Origin: Actinomycetota bacterium
Lineage (GTDB): Bacteria; Actinomycetota; Aquicultoria; Aquicultorales; Aquicultoraceae
DNA: 37,113 nucleotides
Direction: 5' to 3'
Assembly (NCBI GenBank): GCA_014859275.1
Contig: JACUUO010000012.1
Location: forward strand, 1 to 37,113
Made by a program: the position numbers and the translations under genes. Below the pieces are notes generated by a model that was not told where the DNA came from, made no database searches, and was given only the letters and a program-made list of their open reading frames with translations. Within the stretch, counting starts at the first letter, position 1; each line of letters starts with the position of its first letter. Shown here in pieces: positions 10,404-16,312 of the stretch.

Positions 10404-10433
10404 TTGACTAAACCGGGCCATATTGGATATAAT
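10404..10433 (+). promoter_or_regulatory. Near-consensus promoter for a free-standing RNA
   Basis: TTGACT (10404-10409) and a perfect TATAAT (10428-10433) are separated by 18 bases. Transcription should begin near 10440. No protein gene follows before the terminator at about 10675. Confidence 0.75.
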
Positions 10434-10440
10434 ACAGATT

Positions 10441-10675
10441 AATAAGAGTTCTAAATTGAAAACCTAAGACTGAAGGGCTTAAGATAGCAGATGAAAGCTG
10501 GCGTACCCTATCGGTAGAGATAGGATCGACGGTTAGGCATAAGTTGCTTAGTTAAAGAGGGTCCTGCTGGATATGTCGGGTGAGTAAACCCGAGGTGTTA
10601 GAGGAAAATCCTAAAGTGCGCCCCAGTAAGGGGAAGGGCAACGATGCGAAGGTTATCTTGAGCCTTTCTTTTTTT
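10441..10675 (+). ncRNA. Candidate ~235-nt structured non-coding RNA of unassigned class
   Basis: A strong promoter ends at 10433, and a U-run (TTTCTTTTTTT, 10665-10675) closes the transcript. GGCTTAAGATA (10476-10486) pairs with TATCTTGAGCC (10654-10664) in an 11-bp helix with one G-U, enclosing the RNA. AACCT (10461-10465) can pair with AGGTT (10650-10654), a possible pseudoknot. Internal hairpins are CCTATC/GATAGG (10507-10524), CGGGT/ACCCG (10577-10592) and CCCC/GGGG (10621-10633). It does not show the hallmarks of tmRNA, RNase P RNA or SRP RNA. The overall layout recalls the raiA-motif RNA class of Gram-positives, but this is a guess from memory. It lies about 215 bases upstream of the rRNA promoter. 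Confidence 0.65.
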
Positions 10676-10892: not shown

Positions 10893-10920
10893 TTGACATC
10901 CTGAATTCCGGGTGTAAAAT
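10893..10920 (+). promoter_or_regulatory. rRNA operon promoter
   Basis: A consensus TTGACA (10893-10898) and TAAAAT (10915-10920) are separated by 16 bases. Transcription would begin near 10927, about 265 bases before the 16S. Confidence 0.75.
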
Positions 10921-10934
10921 GAAGTTAGAAGATA

Positions 10935-10968
10935 AAAAGACCGAGAAAAATATTTTTCTCGGTCTTTT
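10935..10968. terminator. 34-bp perfect palindrome in the rRNA leader (terminator-like)
   Basis: The sequence is a perfect even palindrome with 17-base arms (AAAAGACCGAGAAAAAT and its complement), ending in TTTT. It would be among the first structures of the rRNA transcript. It could be a two-way terminator insulating the operon, or an early attenuator needing antitermination. A boxA-like TGATCTTTGAAAA follows at about 11109-11121. Confidence 0.5.
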
Positions 10969-11190: not shown

Positions 11191-13016
<1,826 letters not shown>

Positions 13017-13222
13017 TGCTAAAAGTTCGAGGATTCCGGTTATGGGTGTTCCGGCTCCGGGTTCCCCTGAGGGCAACCCTCAGGAACACCCGACCGGACT
13101 ACTGCAAGGTATGCGCCTTGCAGTCAGCATTCAGCTATCAGCAGTTTCTTAAAAAGCTGACGGCTGAAAGCTGATAGCTGAATGCTCTTTAACAACAAAA
13201 TAGCGTGCATCGAGTAGCCGAC
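13017..13222 (+). other. 16S-23S spacer without tRNA genes, with strong hairpins
   Basis: No tRNA-Ile or tRNA-Ala is present. Hairpins are CCTGAGGG/CCCTCAGG (about 13067-13084), CTGCAAGG/CCTTGCAG (about 13102-13123) and a 16-bp perfect stem made by 13127-13142 and 13170-13185. The last uses an AGCTATCAGC-type dispersed repeat. AATAGCGTGCA (13199-13209) pairs perfectly over 11 bases with 16781-16791 beyond the 23S, forming the pre-23S processing stem. Confidence 0.75.
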
Positions 13223-13353: not shown

Positions 13354-13498
13354 GTCTAGAGACTAGATACTAGAGACTGGAAACTAGATGAGGTGGGTCT
13401 GGAGTGAGGTTTAAAAGTATTCACAGACCCAAGAAAGTGTGGTTTTGTCTAGTTTCTAGTTAGGCCCAAAGGGTCGGTCTAGTATCTAGTTTCTAGGC
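13354..13498 (+). repeat. Intervening sequence at 23S helix 9
   Basis: The insert follows ATGGGGAAACCCGG. Its ends are mutually complementary series of CTAGAGACTAGATACTAG and CTAGTATCTAGTTTCTAG words, giving a long stem. Helix 9 is a classical site for intervening sequences that RNase III removes without rejoining. It is built from the same CTAGTTTCTAG words as the helix 25 insert. Confidence 0.7.
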
Positions 13499-13996: not shown

Positions 13997-14049
13997 GGGA
14001 GGGGAGTGAAATAGACTTTCCTGAAACCGTATGCCCACAAGCAGTCAAA

Positions 14050-14189
14050 GCTAGAGACTGGAGACTAGATACTAGAGACTAGAGATGAGGGTCTAGAAAG
14101 TGGGCAAAGCTTTGATTACAAGTTATGCTTTGCTTTCGGATAATTATCTAGTTTCTAGTGAGGGGCAAAGGCCCGGTCAAGTTTCTAGT
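14050..14189 (+). repeat. Intervening sequence at 23S helix 25
   Basis: The insert lies between ACAAGCAGTCAAAG and CATGGCGTGC, which corresponds to about E. coli position 545. It starts with CTAGAGACTGGAGACTAG and ends with GTCAAGTTTCTAG, again able to form a long stem. Helix 25 is a known insertion site in bacterial 23S genes. Confidence 0.7.
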
Positions 14190-14811: not shown

Positions 14812-14958
14812 GTCAGAAATAAGAGACAGGAAACAAGAGGCTAGATGTGAAGGTCTAGAAAGCGGGTAAAGCCTGTTAAGGTAATATCCGCTCCGGATTT
14901 AATCCATCTGGTTTCTGATAGGGCCTTACGGCCCGGCCTGTTTTCTGGTTTCTGATCG
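14812..14958 (+). repeat. Intervening sequence at 23S helix 45
   Basis: The insert lies between CACCGAAGCCATGAGG and GGTAGGGGAGCATTCTG, near E. coli position 1170. The ends TCAGAAATAAGAGACAGGAAAC and GTTTTCTGGTTTCTGA-type words are complementary. Helix 45 is the third classical intervening-sequence site. Processing would leave a fragmented 23S. Confidence 0.7.
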
Positions 14959-15926: not shown

Positions 15927-15988
15927 GGGGACGTTCCTTGCAAATTACAAATACTCGCGAGTATTTGTAATTTGCAAGGAACGTCCCC
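15927..15988. repeat. 62-bp perfect palindrome in place of the 23S L1 stalk
   Basis: The 31-base arms are exactly complementary across the centre CTCGCGAG. It sits after ACTACAGCTTGATCTTGGCTC and about 30 bases before GACAGGGTCAGGTGGGTAG. In canonical 23S this interval is about 140 bases and forms H76-H78, the ribosomal protein L1 binding stalk. None of the usual stalk sequence is present. Confidence 0.75.
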
Positions 15989-16312
15989 CGCCTAACCTGC
16001 TACCGTGGATCCGGTGGGGGGACAGGGTCAGGTGGGTAGTTTGGCTGTGTCAGCCCCCTCCTAAAAAGTAACGGAGGGCTCCAAAGGTACCCTCAGCACG
16101 GTCGGAAACCGTGTAGTGAGCTCAAGGGTATAAGGGTGCCTGACTGCTTAGGCCGATGGGCCGCGCAGGGGCGAAAGCCGGGCTTAGTGACGCGGCGGTA
16201 CCGCGTGGGAGGGCCGCCGTTGCAAGAGATAAAAGTTCTCCGGGGAAATAGGGCCAATCACCCCCGAAAGATCCCATCGACGGGGTGGCTTGGTACCTCG
16301 CAGTCGGCTCTC

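Follow-up and report, generated by a model that had tools for sequence, protein, structure and literature searches.

The 37,113-nt stretch of DNA analysed here (the window) carries a member of a new bacterial noncoding RNA family, with no match in Rfam 15. The favoured reading, to which we assign a probability of about 0.6, is that of an independent gene whose product, a closed three-way-junction RNA, would act in trans as a folded object. Few bacterial structured RNAs of such a length combine strong covariation with invariant bases at the junction; among those that do, several have proved to act as ribozymes, as the cores of ribonucleoproteins, or as global regulators. The RNA occurs in at least 70 genomes of several classes, alongside raiA, 6S RNA and RNase P RNA, and lends itself to laboratory tests through (i) a covariance model, (ii) a bounded core, and (iii) at least one complete carrier genome (G155).

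Architecture and covariation of the RNA

The core of the RNA comprises (i) the closing helix P1, (ii) a three-way junction bearing the arm P2 and the branched arm P3(P4,P5), and (iii) two invariant motifs, GGC-A-UAAG and GCGAAG. Neither P2 nor the interior of P4 keeps a fixed length or form. The 11-bp helix that the first-pass annotation had drawn between the two ends (10476-10486/10654-10664) is exact and grows to 17 bp, and the internal hairpins that it described are present where it located them (Table 1). The minimum free energy is -82.4 kcal/mol, whereas shuffled sequences average -60.7 kcal/mol (z -4.95), and none of 200 shuffles folds as well.

Fitted to R1, a covariance model built from seven sequences of the family, ten sequences display two-sided changes in 26 of 63 pairs, with 96.9% of the cells paired compared with 32-51% for slid partners. 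In A7, an independently built MAFFT alignment that comprises 24 sequences of several classes and leaves out the interior of P2, two-sided changes affect 27 of 36 pairs, and the covariation amounts to 0.515 against 0.285 when shuffled; none of 500 shuffles reaches the observed value. The proposed end-joining helix is itself borne out by covariation, and the outer helix of P4 covaries across classes, its inner part being clade-specific. The locus thus almost certainly encodes a real structured RNA.

The invariant or near-invariant bases among the 24 sequences comprise GGC and UAAG of GGCAUAAG, GCGAAG, and much of AGAnnAA. Within the GGCAUAAG motif, GC 10537-10538 pairs with GC 10646-10647 and UAA 10540-10542 faces GAU 10643-10645, an arrangement that may be UAA/GAN-like. 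In a second class of homologues, a possible H-type pseudoknot is seen by eye in the P4 arm, one of its stems being paired inconsistently.

Table 1. Features of the RNA locus, in window coordinates
Feature	Position	Strand	Remarks
Promoter	10404..10433	+	-35 TTGACT 10404-10409, 18-nt spacer, -10 TATAAT 10428-10433; position kept across family genomes
Predicted structured-RNA transcript, ~235 nt	10440..10675	+	boundaries placed by the -10 box (start) and the U-run (end)
P1, 5' strand (GAAGGGCUUAAGAUAGC)	10472..10488	+	two-sided changes in 15 of 17 pairs of helix 1
J1/2 junction AGAUGAA	10489..10495	+	strongly conserved as AGAnnAA (alignments A4, A7)
P2 hairpin	10496..10534	+	base covaries; tip length highly variable, much longer in the other class
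Motif GGCAUAAG	10536..10543	+	GGC columns invariant in 24/24, UAAG nearly invariant
P3, 5' strand	10543..10548	+	partner 10637-10642; 3 of its 4 core pairs change on both sides
P4 arm	10558..10612	+	outer helix 10558-10561/10609-10612; inner hairpin with loop GAGUAA
P5 hairpin CCCC-AGUAA-GGGG	10621..10633	+	
P3 3' strand 10637-10642, GAU 10643-10645, GC partner of GGCAUAAG 10646-10647	10637..10647	+	
GCGAAG	10646..10651	+	invariant in 24/24; GAAG is junction J3/1
P1, 3' strand	10652..10668	+	together with the U-run resembles an intrinsic terminator, its stem closing the RNA as a whole
U-run, 7 T	10669..10675	+	homologues T-rich here

Promoter, predicted transcript end and neighbouring genes

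The promoter that had been proposed upstream of the RNA is of the sigma-70 type and agrees with 11 of 12 consensus bases. A promoter-like pair of hexamers stands at the equivalent site, 35-50 nt 5' of P1, in each of the seven further carriers within the family, near-consensus in six of the seven (seven of eight with the window) and weak, TTGATT/TATAAA, in G001. The U-run is likewise present as described, and a promoter-like site for the rRNA operon lies at 10893-10920, about 218 nt past it, close to the earlier estimate of ~215 nt. A coding gene is rejected: the first-pass annotation had seen no open frame, and no reading frame is conserved among seven aligned homologues, all seven of which contain stops in every forward frame, the alignment also holding several indels of 1-2 nt. 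The conserved promoter, the structure, the U-run and the covariation together support the original reading of a free-standing structured RNA gene. The RNA very probably has a separate gene of its own, from which, to judge by these signals, a transcript of ~235 nt would be made from its own promoter.

A different explanation would make the RNA a cis-acting leader or attenuator, P1 and the U-run forming a terminator and the opening of P1 allowing readthrough into the rRNA operon or a PEP carboxylase gene. P1 directly adjoins the U-run, the RNA lies 5' of the 16S gene, at 200-500 nt, in four Aquicultor genera, that of the window included, and it immediately precedes an archaeal-type PEP carboxylase gene (PF14010), located 21-94 nt downstream, in G019 and G031; in these genomes, some effect in cis is conceivable. 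However, genus g4 has other genes in place of 16S, a tRNA gene is found downstream in G155, G185 and G423, and elsewhere the next gene is convergent, such as those of P-II regulators. The next gene hence has no constant identity from one genome to another and is in many cases convergent, evidence against a cis-acting leader, riboswitches included, and in favor of a trans-acting RNA. Furthermore, the rRNA promoter-like site of the window stands separately in between, the 5' half of the stem stands at the start of the RNA, and terminator-like hairpins are observed by eye between P1 and the next gene in the other class, all of which renders a leader unlikely.

The rRNA operon of the window displays peculiarities of its own. 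A strong symmetric terminator-like hairpin (10935-10968) lies right behind the promoter-like site, ahead of the 16S gene, which extends over 11191-13017 and comprises 1827 nt compared with the 1533 positions of the model, that is, with insertions; the 23S gene comprises 3547 nt compared with 2925 model positions. Each of the two genes holds a palindromic insertion of ~62-67 nt (GGGGACGTTCCTTGCAAATTACAAATACTCGCGAG...; 12406-12472 and 15927-15993), the copies being 94% identical and resembling a mobile REP-type element. In addition, the 23S gene contains 14-nt repeats (CTAGAGACTAGATA-like) in runs, together with related blocks of 46 nt (13356-13490, 14044-14189, and 14820-14949), which apparently sit in inserted segments.

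Distribution among the Actinomycetota

Copies at 77-80% identity, promoter included, are present in 8 of 11 genomes of the family, relatives of Candidatus Aquicultor; the other three have no copy, possibly owing to assembly gaps. R1 recovers two genomes of another family of the same class (E 1e-12 to 1e-14), in which an independent single-sequence fold repeats the layout of P1 and arms. R2 extends the family to another class with G037 (E 4e-13) and gives a weak match in G155, judged plainly homologous on reading, after which copies were found in 14 of 41 relatives of G155. R3 matches 57 of 296 genomes of the class of G155 at E ≤ 0.001, and also discloses G038, G052 and a second copy in G019. 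Altogether, 70 genomes from several classes of Actinomycetota contain a match at E ≤ 0.001, the covariance-model matches across classes reaching E values of 1e-12 to 1e-26, with a single copy per genome except for the two in G019. The second copy in G019 is divergent and located at L150 1501-1731 (-), near a gene pair that reads as TsaD/TsaB-like from its sequence. Upstream gene neighbours are common within groups, so the RNA gene was probably inherited vertically.

Among genomes from other groups, none of 39 is matched, and the phylum of Moorella yields a single genome out of 398 at E ≤ 0.01; the large searches used strict filters, so that absence beyond the Actinomycetota is a soft statement. 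This single match (G1080, E 0.005) is without the GCGAAG motif and probably due to chance, as also appears to be the case for G349 (E 0.019), and the match of R1 in G012 is no more than a terminator hairpin. As for a phage link, a 19-nt pattern of the second class has 0 matches in viral contigs, an exact pattern that would miss the form of the window.

Proposed mode of action and relation to known RNAs

The ~235-nt RNA is proposed to fold such that the 17-bp P1 opens into the three-way junction from which P2 and P3(P4,P5) extend. P1 and the U-run may also terminate transcription in the Aquicultor group, so that only correctly closed RNA would be released, an arrangement that suggests a coupling of termination to correct folding; since the 5' strand of P1 lies ~170 nt from the U-run, its role as a terminator would be indirect. 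The RNA would then act in trans, as a scaffold for protein binding or catalysis, as presumed for raiA/ModT. Conservation is concentrated at the junction and in the internal loops, not in the exposed loops, which points to a folded trans-acting object rather than an antisense sRNA or a leader, and action in trans is considered likely.

An antisense sRNA would pair through the loops of P2 and P4 or, in the other class, through GAGGUGA 5' of P1. GAGGTGA is found 38-45 nt 5' of P1 in 15 of 24 second-class homologues compared with 0.9% of shuffles, and a protein with an Hfq-like domain adjoins the RNA in two genomes. Nevertheless, neither the window nor its family has GAGGUGA, which therefore does not represent a shared mechanism; with the conserved bases placed in junctions and internal loops instead of exposed seeds, antisense action is improbable. 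In these second-class homologues the element, whose sequence complements the 16S 3' end, occupies a fixed place ~40 nt before P1 (L120-L133, L141, L181-L207), and the sequence behind a -10-like box looks, by eye, as if it could fold into a 5' hairpin. A short peptide frame following GAGGUGA was rejected, the frames differing, by eye, between species.

A dedicated protein partner was also considered. A zinc-ribbon/Hfq-like protein is encoded next to the RNA in five genomes of two genera, the Hfq-like domain being present in two of the five genomes, in one genus; in L158 (6352-6942) and L160 (5233-5829), the neighbour combines a zinc ribbon at its N terminus with an Hfq-like domain (PF17209) at its C terminus. 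Neither domain is found in the complete genome G155, and this protein is consequently not an obligate partner.

Given a folded RNA acting in trans, a regulatory role may tentatively be suggested by analogy with raiA/ModT, which is abundant and shapes entry into stationary phase (PMC11706538). A more doubtful proposal is that the RNA represents a novel ribozyme, or the core of a ribonucleoprotein, in deep-branching Actinomycetota, with the ribosome as a possible target; the link to the ribosome is drawn from the GAGGUGA of the second class, a conserved anti-SD-complementary element in the predicted 5' portion of the transcript, and from several genomes in which the gene adjoins those of rRNA or tRNA.

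None of the 4227 Rfam 15 families matches the locus at its gathering score, and at E ≤ 10 with relaxed filters only two weak antisense matches appear (18.4 and 18.5 bits), far below the cut-offs. The first-pass annotation had been unable to place the RNA among tmRNA, RNase P, SRP or 6S RNA, and rightly so: (i) 6S RNA (RF00013) gives no match at the locus, the 6S RNA of this genome lying elsewhere (G000:C230, 101 bits), and 13 of 13 genomes tested have a separate 6S match, 11 above the cut-off; (ii) RNase P RNA (RF00010) gives no match at the locus and a separate one at G000:C172, as in 12 of 13 genomes, that of the window's own genome (E 5e-18) standing below the Rfam cut-off; (iii) ARAGORN finds no tmRNA within the window, and Rfam none at the locus; and (iv) the SRP models (RF00169/RF01854) give no match at the locus.

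The weak lead to raiA offered at first pass fails as an identification, canonical raiA lying on another contig (173.8 bits) and, in 15 of 15 genomes tested, at a separate locus, with neither model recognizing the other RNA. The RNA might still be a divergent paralogue of the raiA/ModT family: size and topology are similar (a closing helix, a three-way junction, one hairpin arm and one hairpin-bearing arm), a similar UAAG-helix-CGA element occupies an equivalent place, and both RNAs are present in the same genomes. Yet the raiA model RF03072 (gathering score 101.3 bits) has no match at E ≤ 10 in the window or the other homologues, a search with R3, its filters switched off, yields no credible match at the raiA loci, and the conserved primary motifs differ; the likeness in topology and in UAAG...CGA is read as a shared motif rather than shown homology, and such a paralogue is decidedly unlikely. 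A chance hairpin-rich spacer without function is refuted by the covariation controls, given the compensatory changes across classes and the conserved promoter; no evidence was found in its favor, and it is hardly tenable.

As a new family, the RNA can be compared with four known systems. It resembles raiA/ModT in that the latter comprises ~210 nt, needs no downstream gene, has a closing helix leading into a three-way junction and many conserved unpaired bases, and occurs in Actinomycetota (PMC11706538, PMC11751092), but there is no sequence or model match in either direction. 6S RNA is likewise a stand-alone RNA of ~185 nt with a long end helix, although it forms a rod with a bubble, whereas the RNA of the window forms a three-way junction. 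Class A RNase P RNA (RF00010) is also stand-alone and structured, the RNA of the window being half its size and giving no match. Finally, the smtA motif ('Soda Lake RNA') is another orphan RNA, large, structured and strongly covarying, set apart by its description as exceeding 350 nt and occurring only in Thioalkalivibrio (PMC11109978); the main text of that 50-genome survey does not contain the words Actinobacteria, Actinomycetota or Coriobacteria, and its supplements or other papers could mention the RNA. The RNA of the window thus shares with raiA/ModT its closing helix and three-way junction, with 6S RNA its long end helix, and with the smtA motif its strong covariation.
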